From Aradus depressus (lineage: Eukaryota > Arthropoda > Insecta > Hemiptera > Aradidae): DNA of 64,000 nucleotides. Shown here one piece after another: positions 35,371 to 64,000 of this stretch. A program made the position numbers and the translations under genes. The notes beneath the pieces were generated by a model that made no database searches, was not told the origin of the DNA, and saw only the letters and a program-made list of their open reading frames with translations. Position 1 is the first letter of the stretch; each line of letters starts with the position of its first letter. Location: positions 9,092,249-9,156,248 of the forward strand of contig OY759223.1 of the NCBI GenBank assembly GCA_963662175.1, in the 5' to 3' direction.

Positions 35371-35540
35371 TGAATCAGGCCATAACTGAGAAAAAAAAAA
35401 ATCAGTCTGAAAAAGATGAAGTTTCATTGAAAAACCGCATCGAATTTTTAACTGATTACATAACTTTTCATATACTTCATATAGCTGATAGGTAAAAATA
35501 ATGTTTTATTTATCTTCTAGCTGTCGCTTTATTACAACGA

Positions 35541-35547
35541 TATAAAA
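35541..35547 (+). promoter_or_regulatory. Possible TATA box of the MBF2-repeat gene
   Basis: TATAAAA lies about 150 bp upstream of the proposed start codon. If used, the 5' UTR would include an out-of-frame ATG at 35,653. An alternative is a spliced leader exon upstream joining the acceptor ATTTTATTAG at 35,677, which would remove that ATG. The sequence does not decide between them. Confidence 0.3.
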
Positions 35548-35689
35548 CATTTTATGTAGACGATAAATAACACATTTAACACTGCATTAACTGCAAGCTG
35601 TAAAAAAAGAAAGTGACAATTGTGCATTATAATAAGGTTTGATTATCCCAATATGAAAAATAAATATATTTTATTAGTATGTCTTGACA

Positions 35690-35814
35690 ATGGATATTGT
35701 TCTGATATACATAATATTGCAACTGTGGGTTTGGAAAGGAATTTTGGCACAAGAAAGACAATGTACAGAAGGGACTCACGATTTTCACATTGGAAAAAGA
35801 GAAAAAAATGACAG
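35690..35814 (+). CDS. MBF2-repeat gene exon 1: signal peptide and domain start
   Basis: 125 nt from ATG to the donor ACAG|GTAAAA, ending in phase 2. The start has A at -3 and G at +4 (ACAATGG), a favourable context. An earlier in-frame stop (TAG at 35,675) excludes an upstream start in this exon. A minimal ATG-TCT-TGA reading frame lies just before it at 35,679. An overlapping 52-codon frame from 35,653 is longer but has no signal peptide or domain and cannot join exon 2. Joining AG to the G at 42,720 gives Arg42 and restores the MBF2 pattern KREKNDRLGYETKL across the junction; this is the main evidence for the splice. Confidence 0.82.
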
Positions 35815-38800
35815 GTAAAATTATTTTAGTTTAAAAGTTACTATGAAAATTTAGTTCATTAATTAAATGTTGGTGAAATATTTTTCTGTTGTACTTCACT
35901 GAAATGAGGTGAATCATTGGCTATGTACTTCCTCAGCACGAATTAATCAATTATATTTTCGCTTTCCCTTCCAAGCCAATCGTCCATTTGGGCTAAAACT
36001 CAATATTGGTTGTAGGAGGATTAGGGTTATAGATGCTCAACATCTACGTCATAAGCATCTAAATACTTTGGGATGGAAACAGATGCATATCCATACATAT
36101 GCACATACACACACATATATACACACATCTATACATATATATATATACACATATACAGACATACATCCATATACATATATATACATTTTTTTTTTTTTTT
36201 TTTAAGTATTATTGTTTACTTTAACATTTTTGCTTGAATTATAGCTCGTCCATTAGTTTTGTATCACTAAAAAAGTCTATAGTTCTCTGGAGTGCCTCTC
36301 GGTGGTTGCCCAGGGCTGCTGGTAGTGCTCTGGTGATGCCTCTCCTGGCCAGCTCCTCCTGATAGAGTGGACACTCCTCCAGGATGTGCCGCACCGACAG
36401 CTCCTCCTCACACACTTCACACTTCCTGGCTTGCTCTCTTCTTATCAGGTGGCCGTGGCTCAGCCGACTGTGACCCACTCGTAGCCTCATCACTGCCACT
36501 TCTTCTCGTCGGTTATCCCTGATGGACGTTTTCCATGGTTCCACCCCTTTTTTGATGTTTTTTAATTTGTTGCGGCCGTCAACTTCGTTCCACATGTTGG
36601 TCCAACCCAGTTGAACCTTACTATGTAGTATCTGTTTGAGATCCGATTTTGTAGAAATTTCATTACATTCAGCAGCTGAAGTTGAGGCTTCTTTTGCAGC
36701 AAGGTCTGCTTGTTCATTTCCTTCTATGTCTACATGTGATGGAACCAACATAAAAATGACTGACTTGCCCTCAGATAAGATATAATCTGTGTATCTAAGG
36801 ATTCTACTCACGAGAGGAATATCAGTATACAATACTATATATTATATATATATATTGGTTATATATTATATTGGTTATATATTATTTTGCTTCTAAATTA
36901 TGTGTTGATACATTAATTACATCGGCAGTTATTAGATAAATGAATAGGTCGTACGTTATTAGATTTTTTGTGTTAATCTTTCTCCGTAATTCTCCGCTTC
37001 CCTTTGGTCGATTTGACTGAAAATAAATTGGTATCGTCCTTAGAGGGCTTTACATTCACAAGTGGAATTTCTTCTGGATACATTAATGCTATCGGAAGTT
37101 ATCGTGTTCACAGACAGACTTTTATTTCATTTTTGGAATCAAGAGGTCGGGAAACATGAAATTCCGTTGAAAACTCCGAATCGAATATTGACAAATTAAT
37201 TACATACTTTGTTTAGCTGGGGGAAGTAAAAAAACAAACAAAAAACAAAATTTCACATTTTTCATGATATAATAACTTAAGATATTATAGGTTCCCTATT
37301 CATATATTTACAATATATAATAATAATAGATTTACAGCAACATGCCTAGAAACAAAGTACCTGTAAGCCTAAGATACAATAATATAACGGCCGACCTCAA
37401 AACTGTACCCCTAGAAGAAGAGGAACATTCATCTCCTTGGCTCGCCCGCAAACCAAAGTGCCGCTTGGAGCTCACCACGAGACGTAAAGACAGCACGGAC
37501 CCAGCCGAGTACAAGCAAATGTTCTATCATATACTAAGCCCGTTCACTGACCCGCTCGTTATATATACAGACGGATCAAAAAAAGAAGACGCTGTAGAAT
37601 ACGCCTTTGTTGTTGGGTATCGGGAGGTCTCCAACAGGATAGATGGACGGTCTTCTATCCTCTCAGCGGAGTTGCTGGCACTCTCCGCAGCACTCAACTA
37701 CTTACTTTACTTTACTTTCCCTGGCGCTACGGTCCTTGTAGAACCTGGGCCTCCGCAACAATCTTCCGCCATTCTACTCTATCCTCGGCCTCCCGTCTCC
37801 ATCTTCTCACACCAATCGTTCTGAGGTAGTCCTCCACGTCCTCCAGCCAACGTAAGCGGGGTCTACCTCTTCTTCTTTGTCCTCCCGGGTGTCCCTCCAG
37901 TATCCTCCTCGGCAATCTGTCTGGTTGCATCCTCTGTAAATGCCCCAGCCATCGGAGCCGTCCCTGCTTCACTAATGCCACCAGGTCGGTCCGGGCTCTT
38001 GTACAGGTCCCTCAGCTCCCCATTGGTCCGTATCCTCACGTATCAGCACTCAACTACGCCATGGATAAAAAAGAAACGACAATATTAGTATGCAGACTCA
38101 TTAGGAGCATTGAAATCGCTAGAACAAATGTACCCTACCCACCCAGTAGCCAGGAAGATTATCCAGCACAACACTATGCTCAGAGAAGTTGGGAAAGATG
38201 TCCAGTTCATATGGATTCCCAGCCATATCAATATCCTAGGAAATGAGCTGGCAGATAAAGCGGCGAGACGGGCCCTAACATTGCAGGAGATGAGACCGTC
38301 TTTTCTAACGAAAAGGGAGATGTCTCGACCACACAGGATCAAAATTCAAGAGAGCTGGCAACAAATGTGGAACGAGATCCAGGATAACAAGTTAAAGTAC
38401 ATCAAACCAACAGTCCCCCCTGGTCCTCTTCAGAAGTAAGCGAATTGAGGAAGTGGTAATAACAAGACTACGGATAGGCCACAGCAGGCTCACACATGGC
38501 CACCTTATCACCAAAGACAAGCCACCTCAGTGCAACACCTGCAACAGCCCCCTCAGTGCAACACCTGCAACAGCCCCCTCAGTGCAACACCTGCAACAGC
38601 CCCCTCACTATCAAACATATCTTTGAAGACTGCAACATCTACACAGGTTGGGCATACCTAGGTTCCTCACGCAATGTCTCGGCGATGACGAACAGCATAT
38701 CAAAAACAAAAAAAACATTAAAATACTGAGTAGATACAGTCCCGAGACAAACAATATTATCAATCTAAAGTGAATATGTAGGTGTAATGACCAAGAAGTG

Positions 38801-41800
38801 GAACACCTTAAAACATATGTGGGCAACAACCGGCCCGCTGTAAGATTTGGTCCGGCCCGCGAGACATTTTGAAAAACCAAATTTTAAAAAAAATAATATT
38901 ACACTACTTACTCACACTCACTCCAAATGAGGAAGATCGAGTAGGATGGGGTTTGTCGCTTGCTCCTGCGGAATCAAGTGAGCGAGGAAGGCGAGTGAGG
39001 AAAAATTCATGTCATCGCGTGTTTGCTTATGGTCAAAAAATTTGCGTATTTTTTTTTGTGTTTTTTTAATGTGCCTGTTTGCGGATGCGATCGTATTCAT
39101 GTGATTGATTGATAGTGTTACGACCGAACAAAATACATGCAAAAGGAACCCCTTCCCGAGAATAGGCTCCTCGTGGCGGCGATCATCAAAGAGTTTGCTG
39201 GCGGCGCAACGAAAGATTATTGATTCTCAGTTGTTCTACACTAGACGATTCTAGATCATTCCTTCATTTTGCCTATATAAGCGGATGGATGGCCCGCACT
39301 TAAGTTCAGTTCTATTTGAGCTACCGAGGTGATAACTTCGACAAGCGATATCCCAGCGAACTGCTCGTGCCGTCAATTTGCTTTGTGACTTTGTGTGCAT
39401 CTTGAGTGCTTACTAATTATATTTTGTTATTAAGTTTATCGAACGAAAAGTACACGAAAATGAGGTCTGGTGGAAAGAAACGGAAAGTAGATGCAGAGGG
39501 TCGCCAGTTTAAAAAAAAAATGGACTGAAGAATTCTTTTTTATCTTGCACAATGGTAAGCCTATTTGTTTGCTGTGTAATGAATCCATTTCAGTGGTAAA
39601 AGAATTCAATATAAAGAGGCATTACTCAACTAAGCATCCTATGCTACACTCACTGACAGGACAAATAAGAAAAGACAAAATCCAGAAGCTTACAGCAAAT
39701 TTGGAAAACCAGCAGGAAATGTTTCATAAACAAAAAACACAACTTGATAATGTTGTGAAAGCTAGTTTTATAGTTGGTTCAAAATTGGCAATGTCATTAA
39801 AACCATTTGCCGAAGGAGAATTTATCAAGGACTGTATGTTAGAAGTTTGCAGTGTTTAGTGTCCTGAAAAGAAAAATGAATTTGAAAAAATTAGTTTGTC
39901 AAGACGAACTGTTGTCCGACGTATAGAAATGATGGCTAATGATATAAAAACAACATTGACTGACCGTATGGCTGGTTTTGAATCATTTTCCATAACATTA
40001 GATGAGAGCACCGATTTGTCTGACACAGCTCAACTCGAGGTGTTGATAAAGAGTTCACTGTTACTGAGGAATTGCTTGCTTTACAGCCGCTAAAAGGAAC
40101 CACTACAGGAGAGGACAGTTTTAATGAAGTTCAGAAGGTATTCACAAGTTTTGGCTTGCCATGGTCAAAATCAGTTAGAGTATGCACAGATGGTGCACCT
40201 TCTATGGTCGGCTTACGTAAAGGTTTCATCGGATTATTGAATGAAAAAGCAACTGAATGAAATGTGCAAAAAGATGATTTGATAGTCCTTCATTGCATTA
40301 TCCACCAACAGAACTTGTGTTCTAAGTCCATTCCACTCCAGAATATTATGAATATGGTAGTAAAAACCATCAATTTTATTCGATGCCGAGGGCTTAACCA
40401 TCGTCAGTTCAAGGCGTTTTTGGATGAAATATCAGCCGAATATGACGACGTAACATATTATTGTGAAGTCAGATGGCTAAGCAAAGGGAAAATGCTGAAA
40501 CGGTTTTACGAGCTTAGAAATGAGATAGCAGATGTTATGCAAATAAAAGATAAACCACTATCTCAATTGAGTGACCCAAAATGGATATGTGACTTAGCAT
40601 TTCTGGTTGACCTTACAGGCTATTTGAATGATTTTTTTTATTGATTTTTTTTTTATTTACAAATAGTTATTTACAACTGTATACACATAAATACAACAAG
40701 CAAATGTGCTAATAAAGAGATAATGGCAATGTCAAAATATCATGAGGGGAGAAATCACCCAGTGGTGACACTCCCTAGTCACTGTTTTTCTCTCGTTTTT
40801 AGCTAATCACTGTCACTGCTTCTGATCAGGAGATCTCTAGGCCATTGACGCTTAAGCCGTCGTTGGGGAAGTACGGCAGAATGGAGGGCACGGACCAGAG
40901 GATTATTGTGGGAACCAAGAAGGGAAAATAATTTTTTATATTTGGATTTAGCGACTTCAGTAATGAAAGGTACGTTAAGGTCTGTGTGAAGGGTTTTGTT
41001 GGAGACGTAGTAAGGAGCATTGTCTATTGTACGAAGGATTTTGGATTGAAGGGATTGGATGCGCTGGAGATTGGAAGCCTTGGAAGAACCCCAGAGTTCA
41101 AGTCCGTAAGTTCACATAGGTTTGAGTATTGAGTTGTATATAAGTCGTTTTGTTGTCAAAGTTAGTTGGGATCTTTTGTCTAGTAGTCTTAGTAGAAGTT
41201 TATAACGTCTGTTCATTTCTTGTCTTTTCAGTCTCGTGTGAGGATTCCAAGTTAGTCGTTTGTCGAGTATGAGGCCTAGATAGCGGACTTCGTTTTTTAA
41301 AGGGATGCGATTTTTGTTAAGGTACACTGGAGGGCAGGTATATTTTCGACGAAGGATGAAGAAGATGTGAACTGATTTTGTGTCGTTCACCTTCACTCTC
41401 CACTTTTTGTACCAGGACTGAAGGGTTATCAGGTGTTCTTGTAGGTGTCTGGATGATAGGACAGGGTCGGGATGAGGAGAGAGCAACGTGTATGGTTGAG
41501 TGGTGTTTTCGGAAACCAAACTGATGGTCAGGGATGATGTTTTGACCATCCAGTATGGAAAGGATTCTCCTTAGAAATTGTTTCTCAAAAACTTTTCCTA
41601 GAAGAGGAAGGAGGCTGATAGGTCTGTAGGATCTGGGGTGATGGGAGGGCTTGTTTGGTTTGGTTATCATTTTTATGACAGAGTGCTTCCAGGGGCTTGG
41701 GAAATGAGTGGTACGGAGGATGAATGATTTAAATTTGAAACTTAAAAAACAAGGACAGTTAGTAAATGATTTGTACAGCCATTTGAAAGCGTTTCAGAAC

Positions 41801-44800
41801 AAAATCCGCTTGTGGGAAGCACAGATGCTGTCTGGTAACAGTTACCATTTCACCACGCTCTCTGCGCATGAAAATATTGCTTATGCTCAATATACTGAAG
41901 AACTCAAGTTACTGTCGGAGCAATTTTCGAACAGATTTGGCGATTTCAAAAACATGGAAGACTGTTTCAATTTATTTGCTAATCCAACAAAAAGTAATGT
42001 ACAAAATGCTCCAATAAACTTGCAAATAGAGTTGATCGAGATTCAAGAAAACTCACTCCTAAAATCTAAATTTGAAGACGTGGAGTTGTGCGATTTCTAC
42101 AAAAAATACCTCGAAGAAGACCATTTTCCGCAGCTTAGAAAATTCGCAAGAAGATTGATTTGTGCGTTTGGCAGTACTTATAAATGCGAACAGTTCTTTT
42201 CAATGATGAAAGTTAATGAATCAAAACATCGTACAAGGCTCACTGAAGATAATTTGGAAAATTCTTTACGTCTTTGTATCAGTGGAATTAATTCAAACAT
42301 CAATGGATTAGTTTCCCAAATTCAAGCTCAAGTGTCTCATTGATTTCGGTGTCGCTACTTAACTTTCGTAGTTTGTAATAATTCCAAATTTCACGATTTA
42401 ATTATAATATTGTACCTATTTTTTTTCATTTCATTTTGTTATTTTAATAAATTGTATTATAATAACATTGTCTTATTATTTCATGTCTGATATCTATCGC
42501 TAAAAATTATGAAAACTACCTTAAAGTCCGACATTATTTTATTTTGAACCATCTACGCGGCCCGCGAACGTATTTGCACACTAAAGTTTGGCCCGCAACA
42601 TGTCAAAGGTTGCCCATACATGCCTTAAAACATCAAACAACAGCAACATATAATAATAATACGTAAACAAAATATATTTACTAATATACTATAAATTTAT
42701 TTTAAATCTATTTGTTTAGGCTTGGCTATGAGACGAAATTGGAAACAAAAAGAAAACATTGGGAAATTGTGGAAGATCAACTCACATATTTAACTAATGG
42801 TGACGATGTAATAACCTACGTAAAACTAAAAGATGTAAGTAATGATGGTAAAGGGGGCTGCGTCGTCGATTTGAGGGGGGGTCCTGGTCAAAACTATGTC
42901 AAAATACTGTTAAAGTCTCAGCCTAATTACGCAATTAACTTCTATATTGAAATTTTTATTCTATCTCCGTTAAATGAACGAAAACATTCAACTCGCCAGA
43001 AAGAACGGAATGATAATTTAGCTAAGAAAAAAAAAATTTTCGAGACAAGAAATAAAAAATTATCGAAAATATCCTGGAGTTTTGTCAACAACAGAAAACA
43101 AAATTTTACTTCTAAATCAGAGGTGAATGAATCGAATTCGAACATGATTCAAAATGAACAAGGATCGAATCAAGTGTATGGACTGGAATCGTCGAAGGAC
43201 GTAAGAAAACACGAAAATGTCCAAAGAGAGAAACGATCGCACACAAGAGGGAATAATGAAAATCAAGTCAAAGCGAATTATATGAAGAAAGCTGAAGAAC
43301 ATTCGCGTCTTTATAAGAACAAAAGAGAAATACCGGGAAGAAAGGATAACGTCACCAATACAGAAAAGTCATCAACGGATGAAAGAAAAAAATTACCAGA
43401 TAAAGAAACGGGCGGGGAGTCAGATAAAAAAGCAGAGAAAGAGCCAAATGAAGAAAGAAATGATGAACTAGATAAAGAGACAGACGAAAAGACTGATAAA
43501 GGAAAAGAAGACGATAATGAAGGAAAGCCGGATGCAGAAATAGAGGGAGAGCCAGATAATGAGCCAGAAGCAGAAGGAGAGAAGCCAGATGAAGAACCTA
43601 AAGGAGAGAAGCCAGATGAAGAACCTAAAGTAGAGAAGCCAGATAAAGAAACTAAAGGAGAGAAGCCAGATGAAGAACCTAAAGGAGAGAAGCAAGATGA
43701 AGAACCTAAAGGAGAGAAGCCAGATAAAGAACTTAAAGGAGACGAGGCAGACGAAGAGCCTGAAGGAAAGGAGCCAGATGAAGAGCCTGAAGGAGAGAAG
43801 CCAGATGAAGAACCTAAAGGAGAGAAGCCAGATGAAGAACCTAAAGGAGAGAAGCCAGATGAAGAACCTAAAGGACAGAAGCCAGATGAAGAACCTAAAG
43901 GAGAGAAGCCTGATGAAGAGCCTGAAGGAAAGGAGCCAGATGAAGAGCCTGAAGGAGAGAAGTCAGATGAAGAGCCTGCAGGAGAGAAGCCAGATGAAGA
44001 GCCTGAAGGAGCGGAGCCAGACGAAGAGCCTGAAGGAGGAAAGCCAGACGAAGAGCCTGAAGGAGAGGAGCCAGACGGAGAGCCTGAAGGAAAGGAACCA
44101 GACGAAGAGACTGAAGGAGAAGAGCCTGAAGAAGGGGAGCCAGATGAAGAGCCTGAAGGAGAAGAGCCAGACGAAGAGCCTGAAGGAGAAGACCCAGATG
44201 AAGAGCCTGAAGAAGGGGAGCCAGATGAAGAGCCTGAAGGAGAAGAGCCAGACGAAGAGCCTGAAGAAGGCGAGCCAGATGAAGAGCCTGAAGGAGAAGA
44301 GCCAGACGAGGAGCCTGAAGGAGAAGAGCCAGACGAAGAGCATGAAGAAGGGGAGCCAGACGAAGAGCCTGAACAAGGGGAGCCAGACGAAGAGCCTGAA
44401 GAAGGGGAGCCAGACGAAGAGCCTGAAGGAAAGGAACCAGACGAAGAGACTGAAGGAGAAGAGCCTGAAGAAGGGGAGCCAGATGAAGAGCCTGAAGGAG
44501 AAGAGCCAGACGAAGAGCCTGAAGGAGAAGACCCAGATGAAGAGCCTGAAGAAGGGGAGCCAGATGAAGAGCCTGAAGGAGAAGAGCCAGACGAAGAGCC
44601 TGAAGAAGGCGAGCCAGATGAAGAGCCTGAAGGAGAAGAGCCAGACGAGGAGCCTGAAGGAGAAGAGCCAGACGAAGAGCATGAAGAAGGGGAGCCAGAC
44701 GAAGAGCCTGAACAAGGGGAGCCAGACGAAGAGCCTGAAGAAGGGGAGCCAGACGAAGAGCCTGAAGGAGAAGAGCCAGACGAAGAGCCTGAAGAAGGGG

Positions 44801-47800
44801 AGCCAGATGAAGATCCTGAAGAAGGGGAGCCAGATGAAGAGCCTGAAGAAGGGGAGCCAGACGAAGAGCCTGAAGGAGAAGAGCCAGACGAAGCGCCTGA
44901 AGAAGGGGAGCCAGATGAAGAGCCTGAAGAAGGGGAGCCAGACGAAGAGCCTGAAGGAGAAGAGCCAGACGAAGTGCCTGAAGAAGGGGAGCCAGATGAA
45001 GAGCCTGAAGGAGAAGAGCCAGACGAAGAGGCTGAAGGAGAAGAGCCAGACGAAGAGCCTGAAGAAGGGGAGCCTGAAGAAGGGGAGCCAGACGAAGAGC
45101 CTGAAGGAGAAGACCCAGATGAAGAGCCTGAAGAAGGGGAGCCAGACGAAGAGCCTGAAGGAGAAGAGCCAGATGAAGAGCCTGAAGAAGGGGAGCCAGA
45201 TGAAGAGCCTGAAGGAGAAGAGCCAGACGAAGAGCCTGAAGGAGAAGAGCCAGACAAAGAGCCTGAAGAAGGGGAGCCAGATGAAGATCCTGAAGAAGGG
45301 GAGCCAGATGAAGAGCCTGAAGAAGGGGAGCCAGACGAAGAGCCTGAAGGAGAAGAGCCAGACGAAGAGCCTGAAGAAGGGGAGCCAGATGAAGAGCCTC
45401 AAGAAGGGGAGCCAGATGAAGAGCCTGAAGGAGAAGAGCCAGACGAAGAGCCTGAAGAAGGGGAGCCAGACGAAGAGCCTGAAGGAGAAGAGCCAGACGA
45501 AGAGCCTGAAGAAGAGGAGCCAGATGAAGAGCCTGAAGGAGAAGAGCCAGACGAAGAACCTGAAGAAGGGGAGCCAGATGAAGAGCCTGAAGGAGAAGAG
45601 CCAGACGAAGAGCCTGAAAGAGAAGAGCCAGATGAAGAGCCTGAAGGAGAAGAGCCAGACGAAGAGCCTGAAAGAGAAGAGCCTGAAGAAGGGGAGCCAG
45701 ATGAAGAGCCTGAAGGAGAAGAGCCAGACGAAGAGCCTGAAGGAGAAGAGCCAGACGAAGAGCCTGAAGAAGGGGAGCCAGATGAAGAGCCTCAAAAAGG
45801 TGAGCCAGATGAAGAGCCTGAAGAAGGGGAGCCAGACGAAGAGCCTGAAGAAGGGGAGCCAGACGAAGAGCCTGAAGGAGAAGAGCCAGATGAAGAGCCT
45901 GAAGAAGGGGAGCCAGACGAAGAGCCTGAAGGAGAAGGGCCAGACGAAGAGCCTGAAGAAGGGGAGCCAGATGAAGAGCCTGAAGAAGGGGAGCCAGACG
46001 AAGAGCCTGAAGGAGAAGAGCCAGACGAAGAGCCTGAAGAAGGGGAGCCAGATGAAGAGCCTGAAGAAGGGGAGCCAGACGAAGAGCCTGAAGGAGAAGA
46101 GCCAGATGAAGAGCCTGAAGAAGGGGAGCCAGATGAAGAGCCTGAAGGAGAAGAGCCAGACGAAGAGCCTGAAGAAGGGGAGCCAGACGAAGAGCCTGAA
46201 GGAGAAGAGCCAGACGAAGAGCCTGAAGAAGGGGAGCCAGATGAAGAGCCTGAAGGAGAAGAGCCAGACGAAGAGCCTGAAGAAAGGGAGCCAGATGAAG
46301 AGCCTGAAGAAGGGGAGCCAGATGAAGAGCCTGAAGGAGAAGAGCCAGACGAAGAGCCTGAAGAAGGGGAGCCAGACGAAGAGCCTGAAGGAGAAGAGCC
46401 AGATGAAGAGCCTGAAGAAGGGGAGCCAGACGAAGAGCCTGAAGGAGAAGGGCCAGACGAAGAGCCTGAAGAAGGGGAGCCAGATGAAGAGCCTGAAGGA
46501 GAAGAGCCAGACGAAGAGCCTGGAGAAGGGGAGCCTGACGAAGAGCCTGAAGGAGAAGAGCCAGATGAAGAGCCTGAAGAAGGGGAGCCAGACGAAGAGC
46601 CTGAAGGAGAAGAGCCAGATGAAGAGCCTGAAGAAGGGGAGCCAGACGAAGAGCCTGAAGGAGAAGAGCCAGACGAAGAACCTGAAGGAGGGGAGCCAGA
46701 TGAAGAGCCTGAAGAAGGGGAGCCAGATGAAGAGCCTGAAAGAGAAGAGCCAGATGAAGAGCCTGAAGGAGAAGAGCCAGACGAAGAGCCTGAAAGAGAA
46801 GAGCCAGACGAAGAGCCTGAAGAAGGGGAGCCAGATGAAGAGCCTGAAGGAGAAGAGCCAGACGAAGAGCCTGAAGAAGGGGAGCCAGATGAAGAGCCTC
46901 AAAAAGGGGAGCCAGATGAAGAGCCTGAAGAAGGGGAGCCAAACGAAGAGCCTGAAGAAGGGGAGCCAGACGAAGAGCCTGAAGGAGAAGAGCCAGATGA
47001 AGAGCCTGAAGAAGGGGAGCCAGACGAAGAGCCTGAAGGAGAAGGGCCAGACGAAGAGCCTGAAGAAGGGGAGCCAGATGAAGAGCCTGAAGGAGGGGAG
47101 CCAGACGAAGAGCCTGAAGGAGAAGAGCCAGACGAAGAGCCTGAAGAAGGGGAGCCAGACGAAGAGCCTGAAGGAGAAGAGCCAGATGAAGAGCCTGAAG
47201 AAGGGGAGCCAGACGAAGAGCCTGAAGGAGAAGGGCCAGACGAAGAGCCTGAAGAAGGGGAGCCAGACGAAGAGCCAGACGAAGAGCCTGAAGAAGGGGA
47301 GCCTGACGAAGAGCCTGAAGGAGAAGAGCCAGATGAAGAGCCTGAAGAAGGGGAGCCAGACGAAGAGCCTGAAGGAGAAGAGCCAGATGAAGAGCCTGAA
47401 GAAGGGGAGCCAGACGAAGAGCCTGAAGGAGGAGAGCCAGACGAAGAACCTGAAGAAGGGGAGCCAGATGAAGAGCCTGAAGAAGAGGAGCCAGATGAAG
47501 AGCCTGAAGGAGAAGAGCCAGACGAAGTGCCTGAAGAAGGGGAGCCAGATGAAGAGCCTGAAGGAGAAGAGCCAGACGAAGAGGCTGCAGGAGAAGAGCC
47601 AGACGAAGAGCCTGAAGAAGGGGAGCCAGACGAAGAGCCTGAAGAAGAGGAGCCAGACGAAGAGCCTGAAGGAGAAGAGCCAGATGAAGAGCCTGAAGAA
47701 GGGGAGCCAGACGAAGAGCCTGAAGGAGAAGAGCCAGATGAAGAACCTGAAGAAGGGGAGCCAGATGAAGAGCCTGAAGGAGAAAAGCCAGACGAAGAGC

Positions 47801-53800: not shown

Positions 53801-56800
53801 AAGGAGAAGAGCCAGACGAAGTGCCTGAAGAAGGGGAGCCAGGAGAAGAGCCTGAAGAAGGGGAGCCAGACGAAGAGCCTGAAGAAGGGGAGCCAGACGA
53901 AGAGCCTGAAGAAGGGGAGCCAGACGAAGAGCCTGAAGGAGAAGAGCCAGACGAGGAGCCTGAAGGAGAAGAGCCAGACGAAGAGCCTGAAGGAGAAGAG
54001 CCAGACGAAGAGCCTGAAGGAGAAGAGCCAGACGAAGAGCCTGAAGGAGAAGAGCCAGACGAAGAGCCTGAAGAAGGGGAGCCAGACGAAGAGCCTGAGG
54101 AAGGGGAGCCAGACGAAGAGCCTGAAGGAGAAGAGCCTGAAGGAGAAGAGCCAGACGAAGAGCCTGAAGAAGGGGAGCCAGACGAAGAGCCTGAAGAAGG
54201 GGAGCCAGACCAAGAGCCTGAAGAAGGGGAGCCAGATGAAGAGCCTGAAGAAGGGGAGCCAGACGAAGAGCCTGAAGGAGAAGAGCCAGACGAAGAGCCT
54301 GAAGGAGAAGAGCCAGATGAAGAGCCTGAAGGAGAAGAGCCAGACGAAGAGCCTGAAGGAGAAGAGCCAGACGAAGAGCCTGAAGGAGAAGAACCAGATG
54401 AAGAGCCTGAAGAAGGGGAGCCAGATGAAGAGCCTGAAGGAGAAGAGCCAGACGAAGAGCCTGAAGGAGAAGAACCAGATGAAGAGCCTGAAGAAGGGGA
54501 GCCAGATGAAGAGCCTGAAGGAGAAGAGCCAGACGAAGAGCCTGAAGAAGGGGAGCCAGACGAAGAGCCTGAAGGAGAAGAGCCAGACGAAGAGCCTGAA
54601 GAAGGGGAGCCAGACGAAGAGCCTGAAGGAGAAGAGCCAGACGAAGTGCCTGAAGAAGGGGAGCCAGATGAAGAGCCTGAAGGAGAAGAGTCAGACGAAG
54701 TGCCTGAAGAAGGGGAGCCAGATGAAGAGCCTGAAGGAGAAGAGCCAGACGAAGAGCTTGAAGAAGGGGAGCCAGATGAAGACCCTGAAGAAGGGGAGCC
54801 AGACGAAGAGCCTGAAGGAGAAGAGCCAGACGAAGAGCCTGAAGGAGAAGAGCCAGACGAAGAGCCTGAAGAAGGGGAGCCAGATGAAGAGCCAGACGAA
54901 GACCCTGAAGGAGAAGAGCCAGGAGAAGAGCCTGAAGAAGGGGAGCCAGACGAAGAGCCTGAAGGAGAAGAACCAGATGAAGAGCCTGAAGAAGGGGAGC
55001 CAGATGAAGAGCCTGAAGGAGAAGAGCCAGACGAAGAGCCTGAAGGAGAAGAGCCAGACGAAGAACCTGAAGAAGGGGAGCCAGACGAAGAGCCTGAAGG
55101 AGAAGAGCCAGACGAGGAGCCTGAAGGAGAAGAGCCAGACGAAGAGCCTGAAGAAGGGGAGCCAGACGAAGTGCCTGAAGAAGGGGAGCCAGATGAAGAG
55201 CCTGAAGGAGAAGAGCCAGACGAAGAGCTTGAAGAAGGGGAGCCAGATGAAGACCCTGAAGAAGGGGAGCCAGACGAAGAGCCTGAAGGAGAAGAGCCAG
55301 ACGAAGAGCCTGAAGGAGAAGAGCCAGACGAAGAGCCTGAAGAAGGGGAGCCAGATGAAGAGCCTGAAGAAGGGGAGCCAGACGAAGAGCCTGAAGGAGA
55401 AGAGCCAGACGAGGAGCCTGAAGGAGAAGAGCCAGACGAAGAGCCTGAAGGAGAAGAGCCAGACGAAGAGCCTGAAGAAGGGGAGCCAGACGAAGAGCCT
55501 GAAGAAGGGGAGCCAGACGAAGAGCCTGAAGGAGAAGAGCCAGACGAAGAGCCTGAAGAAGGGGAGCCAGATGAAGAGCCAGACGAAGACCCTGAAGGAG
55601 AAGAGCCAGACGAAGAGCCTGAAGAAGGGGAGCCAGACGAAGAGCCTGAAGAAGGGGAGCCAGACGAAGAGCCTGAAGGAGAAGAGCCAGACGAAGAGCC
55701 TGAAGAAGGGGAGCCAGATGAAGAGCCAGACGAAGACCCTGAAGGAGAAGAGCCAGGAGAAGAGCCTGAAGAAGGGGAGCCAGACGAAGAGCCTGAAGGA
55801 GAAGAACCAGATGAAGAGCCTGAAGAAGGGGAGCCAGATGAAGAGCCTGAAGGAGAAGAGCCAGACGAAGAGCCTGAAGGAGAAGAGCCAGACGAAGAAC
55901 CTGAAGAAGGGGAGCCAGACGAAGAGCCTGAAGGAGAAGAGCCAGACGAAGAGCCTGAAGGAGAAGAGCCAGACGAAGAGCCTGAAGAAGGGGAGCCAGA
56001 TGAAGAGCCTGAAGAAGGGGAGCCAGATGAAGAGCCAGACGAAGACCCTGAAGGAGAAGAGCCAGGAGAAGAGCCTGAAGAAGGGGAGCCAGACGAAGAG
56101 CCTGAAGGAGAAGAACCAGATGAAGAGCCTGAAGAAGGGGAGCCAGATGAAGAGCCAGACGAAGACCCTGAAGGAGAAGAGCCAGGAGAAGAGCCTGAAG
56201 AAGGGGAGCCAGACGAAGAGCCTGAAGGAGAAGAACCAGATGAAGAGCCTGAAGAAGGGGAGCCAGATGAAGAGCCTGAAGGAGAAGAGCCAGACGAAGA
56301 GCCTGAAGGAGAAGAGCCAGACGAAGAACCTGAAGAAGGGGAGCCAGACGAAGAGCCTGAAGGAGAAGAGCCAGACGAGGAGCCTGAAGGAGAAGAGCCA
56401 GACGAAGAGCCTGAAGAAGGGGAGCCAGATGAAGAGCCTGAAGGAGAAGAGCCAGACGAAGAGCCTGAAGAAGGGGAGCCAGATGAAGAGCCAGACGAAG
56501 AGGCTGAAGGAGAAGAGCCAGACGAAGAGCCTGAAGAAGAGGACCCAGTTGAAGAGCCTGAAGAAGGGGAGCCAGACGAAGAGCCTGAAGGAGAAGAGCC
56601 AGATGAAGAGCCTGAAGAAGGGGAGCCAGACGAAGAGCCTGAAGGAGAAGAGCCAGACGAAGAGCCTGAAGAAGGGGAGCCAGATGAAGAGCCTGAAGAA
56701 GGGGAGCCAGACGAAGAGCCTGAAGGAGAAGAGCCAGACGAGGAGCCTGAAGGAGAAGAGCCAGACGAAGAGCCTGAAGGAGAAGAGCCAGACGAAGAGC

Positions 56801-59800
56801 CTGAAGGAGAAGAGCCAGACGAAGAGCCTGAAGGAGAAGAGCCAGACGAAGAGCCTGAAGGAGAAGAGCCAGACGAAGAGCCTGAAGGAGAAGAGCCAGA
56901 CGAAGAGCCTGAAGGAGAAGAGCCAGACGAAGAGCCTGAAGAAGGGGAGCCAGACGAAGAGCCTGAGGAAGGGGAGCCAGACGAAGAGCCTGAAGGAGAA
57001 GAGCCTGAAGGAGAAGAGCCAGACGAAGAGCCTGAAGAAGGGGAGCCAGACGAAGAGCCTGAAGAAGGGGAGCCAGACCAAGAGCCTGAAGAAGGGGAGC
57101 CAGATGAAGAGCCTGAAGAAGGGGAGCCAGACGAAGAGCCTGAAGGAGAAGAGCCAGACGAAGAGCCTGAAGGAGAAGAGCCAGATGAAGAGCCTGAAGG
57201 AGAAGAGCCAGACGAAGAGCCTGAAGGAGAAGAGCCAGACGAAGAGCCTGAAGGAGAAGAACCAGATGAAGAGCCTGAAGAAGGGGAGCCAGATGAAGAG
57301 CCTGAAGGAGAAGAGCCAGACGAAGAGCCTGAAGGAGAAGAACCAGATGAAGAGCCTGAAGAAGGGGAGCCAGATGAAGAGCCTGAAGGAGAAGAGCCAG
57401 ACGAAGAGCCTGAAGAAGGGGAGCCAGACGAAGAGCCTGAAGGAGAAGAGCCAGACGAAGAGCCTGAAGAAGGGGAGCCAGACGAAGAGCCTGAAGGAGA
57501 AGAGCCAGACGAAGTGCCTGAAGAAGGGGAGCCAGATGAAGAGCCTGAAGGAGAAGAGTCAGACGAAGTGCCTGAAGAAGGGGAGCCAGATGAAGAGCCT
57601 GAAGGAGAAGAGCCAGACGAAGAGCTTGAAGAAGGGGAGCCAGATGAAGACCCTGAAGAAGGGGAGCCAGACGAAGAGCCTGAAGGAGAAGAGCCAGACG
57701 AAGAGCCTGAAGGAGAAGAGCCAGACGAAGAGCCTGAAGAAGGGGAGCCAGATGAAGAGCCAGACGAAGACCCTGAAGGAGAAGAGCCAGGAGAAGAGCC
57801 TGAAGAAGGGGAGCCAGACGAAGAGCCTGAAGGAGAAGAACCAGATGAAGAGCCTGAAGAAGGGGAGCCAGATGAAGAGCCTGAAGGAGAAGAGCCAGAC
57901 GAAGAGCCTGAAGGAGAAGAGCCAGACGAAGAACCTGAAGAAGGGGAGCCAGACGAAGAGCCTGAAGGAGAAGAGCCAGACGAGGAGCCTGAAGGAGAAG
58001 AGCCAGACGAAGAGCCTGAAGAAGGGGAGCCAGACGAAGTGCCTGAAGGAGAAGAGTCAGACGAAGTGCCTGAAGAAGGGGAGCCAGATGAAGAGCCTGA
58101 AGGAGAAGAGCCAGACGAAGAGCTTGAAGAAGGGGAGCCAGATGAAGACCCTGAAGAAGGGGAGCCAGACGAAGAGCCTGAAGGAGAAGAGCCAGACGAA
58201 GAGCCTGAAGGAGAAGAGCCAGACGAAGAGCCTGAAGAAGGGGAGCCAGATGAAGAGCCAGACGAAGACCCTGAAGGAGAAGAGCCAGGAGAAGAGCCTG
58301 AAGAAGGGGAGCCAGACGAAGAGCCTGAAGGAGAAGAACCAGATGAAGAGCCTGAAGAAGGGGAGCCAGATGAAGAGCCTGAAGGAGAAGAGCCAGACGA
58401 AGAGCCTGAAGGAGAAGAGCCAGACGAAGAACCTGAAGAAGGGGAGCCAGACGAAGAGCCTGAAGGAGAAGAGCCAGACGAGGAGCCTGAAGGAGAAGAG
58501 CCAGACGAAGAGCCTGAAGAAGGGGAGCCAGACGAAGTGCCTGAAGAAGGGGAGCCAGATGAAGAGCCTGAAGGAGAAGAGCCAGACGAAGAGCTTGAAG
58601 AAGGGGAGCCAGATGAAGACCCTGAAGAAGGGGAGCCAGACGAAGAGCCTGAAGGAGAAGAGCCAGACGAAGAGCCTGAAGGAGAAGAGCCAGACGAAGA
58701 GCCTGAAGAAGGGGAGCCAGATGAAGAGCCTGAAGAAGGGGAGCCAGACGAAGAGCCTGAAGGAGAAGAGCCAGACGAGGAGCCTGAAGGAGAAGAGCCA
58801 GACGAAGAGCCTGAAGGAGAAGAGCCAGACGAAGAGCCTGAAGAAGGGGAGCCAGACGAAGAGCCTGAAGAAGGGGAGCCAGACGAAGAGCCTGAAGGAG
58901 AAGAGCCAGACGAAGAGCCTGAAGAAGGGGAGCCAGATGAAGAGCCAGACGAAGACCCTGAAGGAGAAGAGCCAGGAGAAGAGCCTGAAGAAGGGGAGCC
59001 AGACGAAGAGCCTGAAGGAGAAGAACCAGATGAAGAGCCTGAAGAAGGGGATCCAGATGAAGAGCCTGAAGGAGAAGAGCCAGACGAAGAGCCTGAAGGA
59101 GAAGAGCCAGACGAAGAACCTGAAGAAGGGGAGCCAGACGAAGAGCCTGAAGGAGAAGAGCCAGACGAAGAGCCTGAAGGAGAAGAGCCAGACGAAGAGC
59201 CTGAAGAAGGGGAGCCAGATGAAGAGCCTGAAGAAGGGGAGCCAGATGAAGAGCCAGACGAAGACCCTGAAGGAGAAGAGCCAGGAGAAGAGCCTGAAGA
59301 AGGGGAGCCAGACGAAGAGCCTGAAGGAGAAGAACCAGATGAAGAGCCTGAAGAAGGGGAGCCAGATGAAGAGCCAGACGAAGACCCTGAAGGAGAAGAG
59401 CCAGGAGAAGAGCCTGAAGAAGGGGAGCCAGACGAAGAGCCTGAAGGAGAAGAACCAGATGAAGAGCCTGAAGAAGGGGAGCCAGATGAAGAGCCTGAAG
59501 GAGAAGAGCCAGACGAAGAGCCTGAAGGAGAAGAGCCAGACGAAGAACCTGAAGAAGGGGAGCCAGACGAAGAGCCTGAAGGAGAAGAGCCAGACGAGGA
59601 GCCTGAAGGAGAAGAGCCAGACGAAGAGCCTGAAGAAGGGGAGCCAGATGAAGAGCCTGAAGGAGAAGAGCCAGACGAAGAGCCTGAAGAAGGGGAGCCA
59701 GATGAAGAGCCAGACGAAGAGGCTGAAGGAGAAGAGCCAGACGAAGAGCCTGAAGAAGAGGACCCAGTTGAAGAGCCTGAAGAAGGGGAGCCAGACGAAG

Positions 59801-62800
59801 AGCCTGAAGGAGAAGAGCCAGATGAAGAGCCTGAAGAAGGGGAGCCAGACGAAGAGCCTGAAGGAGAAGAGCCAGACGAAGAGCCTGAAGAAGGGGAGCC
59901 AGATGAAGAGCCTGAAGAAGGGGAGCCAGACGAAGAGCCTGAAGGAGAAGAGCCAGACGAAGAGCCTGAAGGAGAAGAGCCAGATGTAGAGCCTGAAGGA
60001 GAAGAGCCAGACGAAGAGCCTGAAGGAGAAGAGCCAGACGAAGAGCCTGAAGGAGAAGAACCAGATGAAGAGCCTGAAGAAGGGGAGCCAGATGAAGAGC
60101 CTGAAGGAGAAGAGCCAGACGAAGAGCCTGAAGGAGAAGAACCAGACGAAGAACCTGAAGAAGGGGAGCCAGACGAAGAGCCTGAAGGAGAAGAGCCAGA
60201 CGAGGAGCCTGAAGGAGAAGAGCCAGACGAAGAGCCTGAAGAAGGGGAACCAGATGAAGAGCCTGAAGAAGGGGAGCCAGATGAAGAGCCTGAAGAAGGG
60301 GAGCCAGACGAAGAGCCTGAAGAAGGGGAGCCAGACGAAGAGCCTGAAAGAGAAGAGCCAGATGAAGAGCCTGAAGAAGGGGAGCCAGACGAAGAGCCTG
60401 AAGGAGAAGGGCCAGACGAAGAGCCTGAAGAAGGGGTACCAGATGAAGAGCCTGAAGTAGAAGAGCCAGACGAAGAGCCTCAAGAGGGGGAGCCAGATGA
60501 AGAGCCTGAAGAAGGAGAGCCAGACGAAGAGCCTGAAGGAGAAGGGCCAGACGAAGAGCCTGAAGAAGGGAAGCCAGATGAAGAGCCTGAAGGAGAAGAG
60601 CCAGACGAAGAGCCTGAAGAAGGGGAGCCAGACGAAGAGCCTGAAGGAGCAGAGCCAGACGAAGAGCCTGAAGAAGGGGAGCCAGACGAAGAGCCTGAAG
60701 GAGAAGAGCCAGACGAAGAGCCTGAAGAAGGGGAGCCAGACGAAGAGCCTGAAGGAGAAGAGCCAGACGAAGTGCCTGAAGAAGGGGAGCCAGATGAAGA
60801 GCCTGAAGAAGGGGAGCCAGATGAAGAGCCTGGAGAAGGGGAGCCAGACGAAGAGCCTGAAGGAGAAGAGCCAGACGAGGAGCCTGAAGGAGAAGAGCCA
60901 GACGAAGAGCCTGAAGGAGAAGAGCCAGACGAAGAGCCTGAAGAAGGGGAGCCAGACGACGAGCCTGAAGGAGAAGAGCCAGACGAAGAGCCTGAAGAAG
61001 GGGAGCCAGATGAAGAGCCAGACGAAGACCCTGAAGGAGAAGAGCCAGACGAAGAGCCTGAAGAAGAGGACCCAGTTGAAGAGCCTGAAGAAGGGGAGCC
61101 AGACGAAGAGCCTGAAGGAGAAGAGCCAGACGAAGAGCCTGAAGAAGAGGACCCAGTTGAAGAGCCTGAAGAAGGGGAGCCAGACGAAGAGCCTGAAGGA
61201 GAAGAGCCAGATGAAGAGCCTGAAGAAGGGGAGCCAGACGAAGAGCCTGAAGGAGAAGAGCCAGACGAAGAGCCTGAAGAAGGGGAGCCAGATGAAGAGC
61301 CTGAAGAAGGGGAGCCAGACGAAGAGCCTGAAGGAGAAGAGCCAGACGAAGAGCCTGAAGAAGGGGAGCCAGATGAAGAGCCTGACGAAGGGAAGCCAGA
61401 CGAAGAGCCTGAAGGAGAAGAGCCAGACGAAGAGCCTGAAGAAGGGGAGCCAGACGAAGAGCCTGAAGGAGAAGAGCCAGACGAAGATCCTGAAGAAGGA
61501 GAGCCAGACGAAGAGCCTGAAGGAGAAGAGCCAGACGAAGAACCTGAAGAAGGGGAGCCAGATGAAGAGCCTGAAGAAGGGGAGCCAGACGAAGAGCCTG
61601 AAGGAGAAGAGCCAGACGAAGAGCCTGAAGAAGGGGAGCCAGACGAAGAGCCTGAAGGAGAAGAGCCAGACGAAGAGCCTGAAGAAGGGGAGCCAGATGA
61701 AGAGCCTGAAGGAGAAGAGCCAGACGAAGTGCCTGAAGAAGGGGAGCCAGATGAAGAGCCTGAAGAAGGGAAGCCAGACGAAGAGCCTGAAGGACAAGAG
61801 CCAGACGAAGAGCCTGAAGAAGGGGAGCCACATGAAGACCCTGAAGAAGGAGAGCCAGACGAAGAGCTTGAAGGAGAAGAGCCAGATGAAGAGCCTGAAG
61901 AAGGGGAGCCAGACGAAGAGCCTGAAGAAGGGGAGCCAGACGAAGAGCCTGAAGGAGAAGAGCCAGATGAAGAGCCTGAAGGAGAAGAGCCAGACGAAGT
62001 GCCTGAAGAAGGGGAGCCAGATGAAAAGCCTGAAGAAGGGGAGCCAGACGAAGAGCCTGAAGAAGGGGAGCCAGACGAAGAGCCTGAAGAAGGGGAGCCA
62101 GACGAAGAGCCTGAAGGAGAAGAGCCAGATGAAGAGCCTGAAGAAGGGGAGCCAGACGAAGAGCCTGAAGGAGAAGGACCAGACGAAGAGCCTGAAGAAG
62201 GGGAGCCAGACGAAGAGCCTGAAGGAGAAGAGCCAGACGAAGAGCCTGAAGAAGGGGAGCCAGATGAAGAGCCTGAAGAAGGGGAGCCAAACGTAGAGCC
62301 TGAAGGAGAAGAGCCAGACGAAGATCCTGAAGAAGGAGTGCCAGACGAAGAGCCTGAAGGAGAAGAGCCAGACGAAGAGCCTGAAGAAGAGGAGCCAGTT
62401 GAAGAGCCTGAAGAAGGGGGGCCAGATGAAGAGCCTGAAGAAGGGGAGCCAGACGAAGAGCCTGAAGAAGGGGAGCCAGACGAAGAGCCTGAAGGAGAAG
62501 AGCCAGATGAAAAGCCTGAACAAGGGGAGCCAGACGAAGAGCCTGAAGGAGAAGGGCCAGACGAAGAGCTTGAAGAAGGGGAGCCAGTTGAAGAGCCTGA
62601 AGAAGGGGGGCCAGATGAAGAGCCTGAAGAAGGGGAGCCAGACGAAGAGCCTGAAGGAGAAGAGCCCAACGAAGAGCCTGAAGAAGGGGAGCCAGATGAA
62701 GAGCCTGAAGAAGGGGAGCCAGACGAAGAGCCTGAAGGAGAAGAGCCAGACGAAGAGCCTGAAGAAGGGGAGCCAGATGAAGAGCCTGAAGGAGAAGAGC

Positions 62801-64000
62801 CAGACGAAGAGCCTGAAGAAGGGGAGCCAGACGAAGAGCCTGAAGAAGGGGAGCCAGACGAAGAGCCTGAAGAAGAGGAGCCAGTTGAAGAGCCTGAAGA
62901 AGGGGGGCCAGATGAAGAGCCTGAAGAAGGGGAGCCAGACGAAGAGCCTGAAGAAGGGGAGCCAGACGAAGAGCCTGAAGGAGAAGAGCCACATGAAGAG
63001 CCTGAACAAGGGGAGCCAGCCGAAGAGCCTGAAGGAGAAGGGCCAGACGAAGAGCTTGAAGAAGGGGAGCCAGTTGAAGAGCCTGAAGAAGGGGGGCCAG
63101 ATGAAGAGCCTGAAGAAGGGGAGCCAGACGAAGAGCCTGAAGGAGAAGAGCCCGACGAAGAGCCTGAAGAAGGGGAGCCAGATGAAGAGCCTGAAGAAGG
63201 GGAGCCAGACGAAGAGCCTGAAGGAGAAGAGCCAGACGAAGAGCCTGAAGAAGGGGAGCCAGATGAAGAGCCTGAAGGAGAAGAGCCAGACGAAGAGCCT
63301 GAAGAAGGGGAGCCTGACGAAGAGCCTGAAGAAGGGGAGCCAGACGAAGAGCCTGAAGGAGAAGAGCCAGACGAAGTGCCTGAAGAAGGGGAGCCAGACG
63401 AAGAGCCTGAAGAAGGGGAGCCAGACGAAGAGCCTGAAGAAGAGGAGCCAGACGAAGAGCCTGAAGGAGAAGAGCCAGACGAAGAGCCTGAAAAAGGGGA
63501 GCCAGACGAAGAGCCTGAAGGAGAAGAGCCAGACGAAGAGCCTGAAGAAGGGGAGCCAGACGAAGAGCCTGGAGGAGAAGAGCCAGACGAAGAGCCTGAA
63601 GAAGGGGAGCCAGACGAAGAGCCTGAAGAAGGGGAGCCAGACGAAGAGCCTGGAGGAGATGAGCCAGATGAAGAGCCTGAAGAAGGGGAGCCAGATGAAG
63701 AGCCTGAAGGAGAAGAGCCTGAAGGAGAAGAGCCAGACGAAGAGCCTGAAGGAGAAGAGCCAGACGAAGAGCCTGAAGAAGGGGAGCCAGATGAAGAGCC
63801 TGAAGAAGGGGAGCCAGATGAAGAGCCTGAAGAAGGGGAGCCAGACGAAGAGCCTGAAGAAGGGGAGCCAGACGAAGAGCCTGAAGGAGAAGAGCCAGAC
63901 GAAGAGCCTGAAGAAGGGGAGCCAGACGAAGTGCCTGAAGAAGGGGAGCCAGATGAAGAGCCTGAAGGAGAAGAGCCAGACGAAGAGCCTGAAGAAGGGG
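35690..64000 (+). CDS. Secreted MBF2-domain protein with giant super-acidic repeat, 3'-partial
   Basis: Two exons join in phase: 35,690-35,814 and 42,720 to beyond the window. Residues 1-20 are a signal peptide (hydrophobic core LIYIILQLWVW, likely cleavage after ILA). Residues about 29-121 form an MBF2 family domain, recognised by FHIGKREKNDRLGYET, the Trp at KHWEIVED, then ITYVKLKDVSNDGKGG, GGPGQNYVKI and SQ-INFYIEIF. MBF2 proteins are normally small secreted arthropod proteins of about 110-130 residues, named after a silkworm coactivator. Residues 123-235 are a basic, Asn/Lys-rich spacer with REKR|S (211-215), a furin-type site. Residues from about 323 on are 9-residue acidic repeats. At least 7,135 codons are present and the frame is still open at the window end. 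Function is unknown; an extracellular polyanionic matrix, glue or salivary role is inference only. Confidence 0.85.
35930..36010 (-). repeat. Dispersed repeat family A fragment, in the MBF2 intron
   Basis: TTCCAAGCCAATCGTCCATT and TGGGCTAAAACTCAATAT are family A 3' words in minus orientation. Confidence 0.55.
36085..36205. repeat. CA/TA-rich microsatellite with poly-T
   Basis: Degenerate ATACACACATATAC repeats followed by about 17 T. Confidence 0.85.
36239..36832 (-). pseudogene. I/R1-type LINE: RNase H end and zinc knuckle
   Basis: A 197-codon minus-strand frame without internal stop covers the last part of RNase H (MLVPSHVDIEGNEQADLAAK, with the His and Asp of the domain) and the C-terminal knuckle CEVCEEELSVRHILEEC (CxxC, H, C), then ends normally. 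The 5' part of the ORF is cut off at an AT-rich microsatellite. It is a separate insertion from the plus-strand relative at 37,342. Both lie in the intron of the MBF2-repeat gene. Confidence 0.85.
36900..37230 (-). repeat. Dispersed repeat family A, minus-strand copy
   Basis: GTTGATACATTAATTACATC, CTTTGGTCGATTTGACTGA and GTTATCGTGTTCACAGACAG are inverted family A words. The copy ends at CTGGGGGAAGTAAA. Confidence 0.68.
37702..38043 (-). mobile_element. RTE-type LINE 3' end nested in the RNase H region
   Basis: A 342-bp insert flanked by a perfect 14-bp duplication CAGCACTCAACTAC (37,688-37,701 and 38,044-38,057). Its left end is a (TTTAC)n tail, that is (GTAAA)n on the coding strand. The minus-strand frame reads RLRWLGHLQRM, RILEGHPGGQRRRGRPRLRW and ends W..IV.EA, the very common C-terminal tail of RTE-like reverse transcriptases. 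Only this tail was inserted. Confidence 0.85.
38524..38605. repeat. 26-bp tandem triplication in the LINE knuckle
   Basis: CCTCAGTGCAACACCTGCAA plus CAGCCC is repeated about three times. Since 26 is not a multiple of 3, each repeat shifts the frame, so it arose after the element had stopped coding. Confidence 0.88.
39274..39282 (+). promoter_or_regulatory. Probable TATA box of the hAT transposase
   Basis: TATATAAGC about 185 bp upstream of the transposase start codon, in the 5' untranslated part of the element. Confidence 0.5.
39460..42343 (+). pseudogene. hAT transposase (GTF2IRD2/ZBED5-like), decayed
   Basis: Starts at ATG 39,460 (MRSGGKKRK). A 10-A run at 39,511-39,520 adds one base and shifts the frame. 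A BED-like zinc finger follows (CLLCNESISVVKEFNIKRHY; C..C...H). Further damage: an in-frame TAG near 39,857, a deletion or frameshift near 40,040 after SITLDESTDLSDTAQLEV, and a TGA at 40,258. The core continues (CTDGAPSMVG, LHCIIHQQNLC, VRWLSKGKMLKRF), is interrupted at NDF by the LINE, and resumes at MNDLNLKLKKQG to the dimerisation end (FGSTYKCEQFFSMMK). The last 200 codons are intact. Family assignment is by the DESTD, DGAPSM and H-HQ-LC motifs. Confidence 0.87.
40635..41720 (-). mobile_element. Jockey-type LINE nested in the hAT transposase
   Basis: Flanked by the 10-bp duplication TGAATGATTT (40,625-40,634 and 41,721-41,730). Its poly-A end (poly-T on +) is at the left. The minus-strand reading gives RSYRPISLLPLLGKVFEKQF and PDHQFGFRKHHSTIHV, then a deletion removes the YADD core, and the thumb region follows (KVNDTKSVHIFFILRR, VRYLGLILDKRLTW). 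A TGG-to-TGA change interrupts LKPMWTYG, after which the C-terminus can be followed to its stop near 40,810. It is younger than the hAT element. Confidence 0.86.
42631..42719. other. End of the MBF2-repeat gene intron
   Basis: AT-rich sequence with a branch-like CTAATATAC and the acceptor ATTTGTTTAG in front of 42,720. Confidence 0.6.
42720..64000 (+). CDS. MBF2-repeat gene giant exon 2 (3' end outside the window)
   Basis: The frame beginning CTT GGC TAT at 42,721 is kept without a stop to 64,000, 7,093 codons, as checked by codon phase at the start of blocks throughout. It encodes the rest of the MBF2 domain (to about residue 122), a basic spacer, a Lys/Glu/Asp transition, and the repeat. 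Few ATG codons exist in frame and no stop, so a search for complete Met-to-stop frames would miss it and report shadow frames instead. Length changes between repeats are multiples of three bases, and the repeat has no Cys. One Trp (52,345) and one Tyr (50,731) were noticed, each one base away from the consensus codon. Confidence 0.85.
43573..44040 (+). repeat. Diverged 5' edge of the repeat array (GEKPDEEPK type)
   Basis: About 17 units of 27 bp with consensus GEKPDEEPK and scattered changes (VEKPDKETK, GEKQDEEPK, GDEADEEPE). The charge is mixed, with about two Lys per unit. Around 43,740-44,040 Lys is progressively replaced by Glu or other residues. Confidence 0.88.
44041..64000 (+). repeat. 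Homogeneous 27-bp coding tandem array, over 700 units
   Basis: Two alternating unit types, EPEEGEPDE (GAGCCTGAAGAAGGGGAGCC...) and EPEGEEPDE (GAGCCTGAAGGAGAAGAGCC...), each with 6 acidic residues in 9. The D codon is GAC or GAT and the pattern of these synonyms marks longer duplicated blocks. Shortened units (for example PDEEPDEDPEGEEPGEE, or loss of 9-18 bases) always keep the frame. About 78% of + strand bases are purines, against AT-rich flanks. The array continues past the window end. Confidence 0.95.

Follow-up and report, generated by a model that had tools for sequence, protein, structure and literature searches.

A predicted MBF2-headed gene of Aradus depressus with a giant acidic repeat exon

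The forward strand of contig OY759223.1 (C9 in our numbering) of the bug Aradus depressus carries, between positions 9,092,249 and 9,156,248, a gene in which a domain of the MBF2 family is continued within one exon by thousands of residues of acidic 9-residue repeats. This stretch of 64,000 nucleotides is called the window below; the next 40 kb of the contig were added on its 3' side, with coordinates called window-extended. The MBF2 domain, a continuous exon-2 frame down to its stop codon, the repeat array, a second repeat and a tail with Ser, Tyr, Asp and Cys are present directly in the sequence, and the splice to a first exon, cleavage of a signal peptide near residue 20 and the lack of a fold in the array are predicted. 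We regard as evenly balanced the proposal that this two-exon gene gives a secreted, MBF2-headed acidic chain of 10,177 aa, built as a sticker-spacer-sticker polymer, from which a hydrated gel or glue, crosslinked by ions, would form.

The MBF2 domain and the gene model

A search of the joined product with the Pfam MBF2 profile (PF15868, curated cut-off 25 bits) gave a match of 64.1 bits (E 1.6e-17) over residues 34-121, which covers positions 1-89 of the 90 positions of the profile, and exon 2 alone reached 51.2 bits. By this whole-domain match the giant gene belongs to MBF2 at the sequence level, and its signal-peptide-like exon 1 (predicted signal peptide at about aa 1-20) and its putative phase-2 intron, of the type predicted in its paralogs, are consistent with this membership. 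What is unusual is the size, 10,177 aa as compared with the ~100-130 aa usual in the family, a range that is not part of the profile definition. The initial annotation had read an MBF2 domain at residues 29-122 of the translated exons 1 and 2; the profile confirms the domain, well over the cut-off, and corrects its limits to 34-121.

The start codon at 35,690 sits in a short frame (35,678-35,815) with stops on both sides, and the exon-2 frame runs free of stops from 42,706 up to the end of the window, for 7,098 codons. Joining 35,814 to 42,720 by a GT-AG intron leaves 7,135 codons uninterrupted inside the window, and this is the only open join among the 16 donor/acceptor pairs listed. The splice is a prediction, and it is well supported because the acceptor position and phase are common to the 11 of 11 paralogs that cover this site, with a matching exon 1 in four. 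An earlier reading of a signal peptide, an MBF2 domain and the repeats in one spliced frame across this join agrees with the 7,135 open codons, the profile match and the apparent conservation of intron position and phase among paralogs. The fusion of MBF2 to the repeats is in any case independent of the splice, since profile positions 14-89 and the array share one exon. Four phase-compatible ATG...GTRA joins that could provide another first exon were found between 30,000 and 42,600. Three of them were scored and rejected, with 52.6-53.2 bits against 62.8 bits for the predicted exon 1 in constructs of similar length, a comparison in which exon 2 alone gave 50.5 bits.

Downstream, the frame ends at a TGA at C9:9,165,374-9,165,376 (window-extended 73,126-73,128). 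A product of more than 7,100 residues had been predicted from the window; the size stands, although the gene does not end at the window end, and the full length is 10,177 aa. An open-frame report on the genome lists an uninterrupted 10,140-residue frame at the same locus. Three AATAAA hexamers lie 185, 201 and 210 bases past the stop (window-extended 73,313, 73,329 and 73,338), and on the 5' side a single match to TATAAAA is found within 35,401-35,690.

Repeats can stay open by chance, and the other five frames of the array were used as controls. Across its 28,524 bases the MBF2 frame contains no stop and the other five contain 8, 1,389, 6, 10 and 10. The 991 CCAGA motifs of the array all share the same phase, and a single frame yields 1,033 units across 9,508 codons, with 38 off-unit runs between units. 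When units are compared with the two consensus units for single-base changes, none of 11 stop-making kinds was seen, whereas the remaining nonsynonymous transversions are represented by 47 of their 85 kinds (Fisher p=0.0005), the kinds being non-independent events because duplication spreads copies. The 285 codons of exon 2 that precede the array are also open, as compared with 0 of 20,000 Markov resamples. A gene on the antisense strand or in another frame of the array was considered and discarded, given stops in all five other frames.

The acidic array and the ends of the chain

The repeats had been described as 9-residue units with six acidic residues each. This holds for the units PDEEPEEGE (261 of 727 in the window) and PDEEPEGEE (255 of 727). 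The window part of the array (6,725 residues) is 65% Asp+Glu, with 39 Lys/Arg, 4 Ser and 3 Thr, and its charge stays between -38 and -68 per 100 residues throughout. Proline usually recurs every 4-5 residues in this part, with a maximum spacing of 9; this frequency of Pro, together with the like charges, leaves little room for a fold, and a 120-aa piece of the array, modelled as a single sequence and hence weakly, showed zero secondary structure (pTM 0.11). For the mature protein we calculate 1.137 MDa and a charge of about -6,145 at pH 7, in line with the several thousand negative charges proposed initially.

The units of the array are recent copies of one another. Among 662 exact 9-codon units in the window only 90 are distinct, and duplication is also visible at the kilobase scale, where a lag of 2,868 bases gives 92% identity across 2 kb. 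At the start of the array (43574-44134), Lys-bearing units of the PDEEPKGEK type are less acidic than the remainder, as if the edge had retained an older unit and the interior had been re-amplified.

On both sides the array is flanked by sequence of a different kind (Table 1). The linker contains R211-E-K-R214, which we take to be a furin-type site from the motif R-X-[KR]-R. The tail is composed of 44 Ser, 15 Tyr, 15 Asp, 15 Glu, 6 Phe and 2 Cys among its 130 residues, and 11 Ser-x-Glu motifs lie after residue 9,836, presumably sites that secreted kinases could phosphorylate. No second copy of the linker was found in the genome at E<=1 (query 43,087-43,575), nor of the tail at E<=0.001, and the tail alone had no Pfam match at E<=10.

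Table 1. Features of the giant MBF2 gene (window coordinates unless given as window-extended)
Feature	Position	Strand	Basis and remarks
TATAAAA, possible core promoter	35541..35547	+	weak, pattern match only; ~150 bases 5' of ATG
Exon 1, coding (125 nt)	35690..35814	+	hydrophobic N-terminus, Cys25, first MBF2 positions; matches paralog exon 1
Intron, single, predicted, phase 2, 6.9 kb	35815..42719	+	donor CAG/GTAAAA, acceptor TTTAG/GC; contains transposon remnants
Exon 2, window part	42720..64000	+	continues past window to stop; 30.4 kb in all
MBF2 main part, aa 43-121, including Cys89	42720..42957	+	PF15868, 51.2 bits exon 2 alone, 64.1 joined
Basic linker, aa 123-265	42961..43389	+	pI 10.2, charge ~+16
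R211-E-K-R214, putative furin-type R-X-[KR]-R	43225..43236	+	only one in the 7,135-aa window part
Transition, aa 266-410	43390..43824	+	Lys-bearing units, e.g. PDEEPKGEK
Acidic array of 9-residue units, aa 411-9,835	43825..64000, on to window-extended 72,099	+	Glu/Pro/Asp/Gly repeats
Second repeat, aa 9,836-10,047 (212 residues)	window-extended 72,100-72,735	+	nine copies of a 12-residue DAEEMIAPGHES-type unit
Tail, aa 10,048-10,177 (130 residues), unique	window-extended 72,736-73,125	+	Ser/Tyr/Asp-rich

MBF2 paralogs and known giant repeat proteins

A profile search of the whole genome (697.7 Mb, 74 contigs) gave 16 candidate MBF2 exons for scoring, of which 15 were above the cut-off, one of them the giant gene; the same search profile matched none of 14 control genomes. 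The other 14 lie in open frames of 68-229 residues. In eleven of these the match includes the start of exon 2, and each of the 11 has an AG acceptor at the position and phase of the giant's, just before an R-L-L-Y-type start, the acceptor being picked by alignment with the giant and further AGs lying close by in most. An exon 1 with a hydrophobic start, a GTAAG donor and the right phase was detected in four of the 11 (L015, L017, L019 and L020), and L018 has a weaker candidate. In an alignment with ten paralogs, which omits L029 (its domain is near-identical to that of L028) and the partial L024, L026 and L027, the giant is 22-32% identical to them and shares an IT...D...GG.G core; its Cys25 aligns with a Cys in all four paralogs bearing exon 1, and its Cys89 in nine of ten. 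The MBF2 matches of L024, L026 and L027 start at profile positions 40-43, after an acceptor, so that an extra intron inside the domain is likely in these three.

Ten of the exon matches are clustered in about 70 kb (C10:5,006,081-5,074,481), and the remaining five are found at 9.85 Mb of C10 (two), on C13, on C5 and, for the giant, on C9. Around the giant, single-sequence phmmer on six-frame segments detected no second MBF2 at E<=1 in the 40 kb before the window or the 80 kb after it, and within the window nothing beyond the giant's two exons was found below ~43,560.

Two members of the cluster, L028 (C10:5,074,305) and L029 (C10:5,064,688, minus strand), have near-identical MBF2 domains and, like the giant, carry C-terminal extensions within the same exon. 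From acceptor to stop they measure 210 aa and 120 aa, as against 84-92 in the nine other paralogs measured. The L028 tail has a KR-S site past the MBF2 domain that resembles the QREKR-SH of the giant. In contrast to the giant, no acidic repeat was seen in the open frames of L028 and L029; since their tails are shorter and lack it, MBF2 tails would have been gained more than once or early. The statement in the initial annotation that MBF2 proteins normally have nothing after the domain thus has exceptions.

Silkworm MBF2 proteins are 100-118 aa long with a predicted signal peptide, their genes are induced by infection and starvation, and the family is called insect-specific (PMC8914287). The 110-aa Repat33, predicted to be secretory, contains an MBF2 domain (PMC8156158), in the anterior midgut of Aedes an MBF2 gene has the highest expression of all genes (PMC9113746), and MBF2-domain-like proteins are contained in robber-fly venom (PMC6615979). 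The giant is like MBF2/REPAT proteins (PF15868) in its apparent signal-peptide-like exon 1, the predicted phase-2 intron before R-L-L-Y and the two Cys; it differs in the ~10,050 residues after the domain, as compared with the 100-118 aa of the silkworm members (PMC8914287). In the titles and abstract openings of 40 of the 68 open-access articles containing a word that begins with MBF2, many of these articles being unrelated, no fusion of MBF2 to a giant acidic repeat is described.

In the silk fibroin heavy chain (FibH), a well known giant repeat protein, the repeats are Gly-Ala in composition, whereas those of the giant are made of Glu, Pro, Asp and Gly, acidic and Pro-rich. The similarity lies in the layout. 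The FibH gene has a 67-bp exon, one intron, a 15,750-bp repeat exon and non-repetitive ends (PMC10055898), and the giant, by prediction, likewise has a short exon 1, a single intron, a giant repeat exon about twice as long and unique ends. No fibroin-type terminal domain was found in the giant: Pfam detected only MBF2 in the N-terminal part, and the C-terminus gave no credible match. The Balbiani ring genes of Chironomus, which encode giant secretory proteins, are four genes of ~40 kb in which four introns accompany a core of repeats (PMC4192438). They resemble the giant in the tandem-repeat core and differ in having four introns against one predicted, and the excerpt of that description mentions neither MBF2 nor acidic repeats (PMC4192438). 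By analogy, the giant would belong functionally among giant secreted repeat polymers, though it is not a fibroin.

Searches for relatives of the giant gave none in a protein collection that may hold few insects and was searched with no positive control, neither with the 160-aa head (E<=0.001, 25 candidates) nor with the giant (2,653 candidates) or a 1,000-aa query (2,759 candidates), both at E<=10. None of the pattern matches in viral contigs (8) or in prokaryote contigs (85) was confirmed, no solved structure gave a credible match (the head reached E 0.46 at best and the low-complexity tail 0.04), and no RNA families or tRNAs were found.

Proposed working, alternatives and transposon remnants

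As a polymer, the protein would be secreted through its paralog-type signal peptide. The MBF2 head with the basic linker at one end, and the tail with its aromatic residues, Cys and Ser-x-Glu motifs at the other, may act as association points, and the array between them, with more than 6,000 (about 6,300) carboxylates, would stay expanded as its charges repel one another, up to the point where Ca2+, Mg2+ or polycations screened them. The ~+16 of the linker cannot offset ~-6,145, and thus counter-ions or polycations from elsewhere must pack the array. During packaging, cleavage at the putative furin-type R211EKR site could release MBF2 together with the basic part. In a wider sense we suggest, with somewhat tentative confidence, that a small immunity-type MBF2 protein has become the head of a new class, a 1.1-MDa secreted polyelectrolyte with a phosphorylatable aromatic tail that serves as gel, glue or ion store.

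Several observations weigh against the gel or glue proposal or parts of it, beside the non-independence of the substitution kinds given above. For the MBF2 exon, modelled alone from a single sequence, no fold could be obtained (pLDDT 50.6). In six of the 11 paralogs no first exon was found within ~1.5 kb upstream with a hydropathy threshold applied. One of the four alternative first exons equals or exceeds the predicted exon 1 in N-terminal hydrophobicity, so that hydrophobicity alone is no proof of the splice. Further, the changes seen in the array include 20 of the 30 kinds that are synonymous and 76 of the 121 that are nonsynonymous; as both are common, its residues are hardly constrained individually, and what the array visibly retains is its reading frame and its bulk composition and charge only. 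Finally, Cys is absent from the array within the window, and Tyr and Trp occur there once each, so that cohesion must come from the ends or from ions.

It is also conceivable, if rather unlikely, that the secreted protein mainly holds Ca or other cations, as an ion sink, a mineral matrix of egg shell or cuticle or a lubricating coat, with no adhesion or gelation. The excess of Asp and Glu over the 39 Lys/Arg of the window array would suit such a role, as would the 11 Ser-x-Glu motifs past residue 9,836 as candidate kinase targets. However, mineral proteins are rich in phosphate, in contrast to the Ser/Thr-poor array (7 in 6,725 residues), and the Tyr- and Cys-bearing tail suggests association. 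The weak residue constraint and the recent amplification (90 distinct units, duplicates at a lag of 2,868) would be expected if the array had expanded in tandem without restraint in a young copy of MBF2 and were tolerated while it kept the frame, its length having no special role; we find this improbable, as 28.5 kb of array contain no stop or frameshift, the linker and the tail are still open and the tail has a distinct composition.

Two further explanations are much less credible. A tandem array this large is difficult to assemble, and the array length or the fusion itself could come from repeat mis-assembly; yet the linker, the array and the tail follow one another unbroken in one 37.7-Mb contig with no N and no frameshift, and MBF2 and the first repeats share one gap-free exon, which makes an error of this kind very improbable. 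MBF2 was first described as a TFIIA-binding coactivator (PMC8156158, PMC9113746), and an intracellular coactivator with a giant acidic activation region could be imagined. We give this hardly any credence, since the giant's hydrophobic N-terminus can be aligned with the starts of its paralogs, which look like signal peptides, and silkworm MBF2 proteins have a predicted signal peptide (PMC8914287).

Were the polymer proposal true, the MBF2 head of the chain would be a natural test of an extracellular role for a family that is reported from insect gut, blood cells and venom, and the array, as an extreme case of a natural polyanion, could inform thinking about gels, glues and the binding of ions. 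Digestion with trypsin in silico gives 28 peptides of 7-30 residues, six of them inside the array, which cover 352 of the 10,177 residues. Trypsin proteomics is thus nearly blind to the giant, and similar proteins could be overlooked.

Transposon remnants are found in and around the gene. LINE-like reverse transcriptase/RNase H fragments lie at 1285-2745 (+), 36242-36841 (-), 37330-38436 (+) and 41115-41793 (-); three of them were scanned with Pfam, with only 1285-2745 above the cut-off, and the rest were assigned by eye. The giant's intron also holds a hAT-type transposon remnant (39491-42340, +), in which a Spin-doc zinc finger (39,491-39,856) and a hAT dimerisation region (41,708-42,340) can be recognized.

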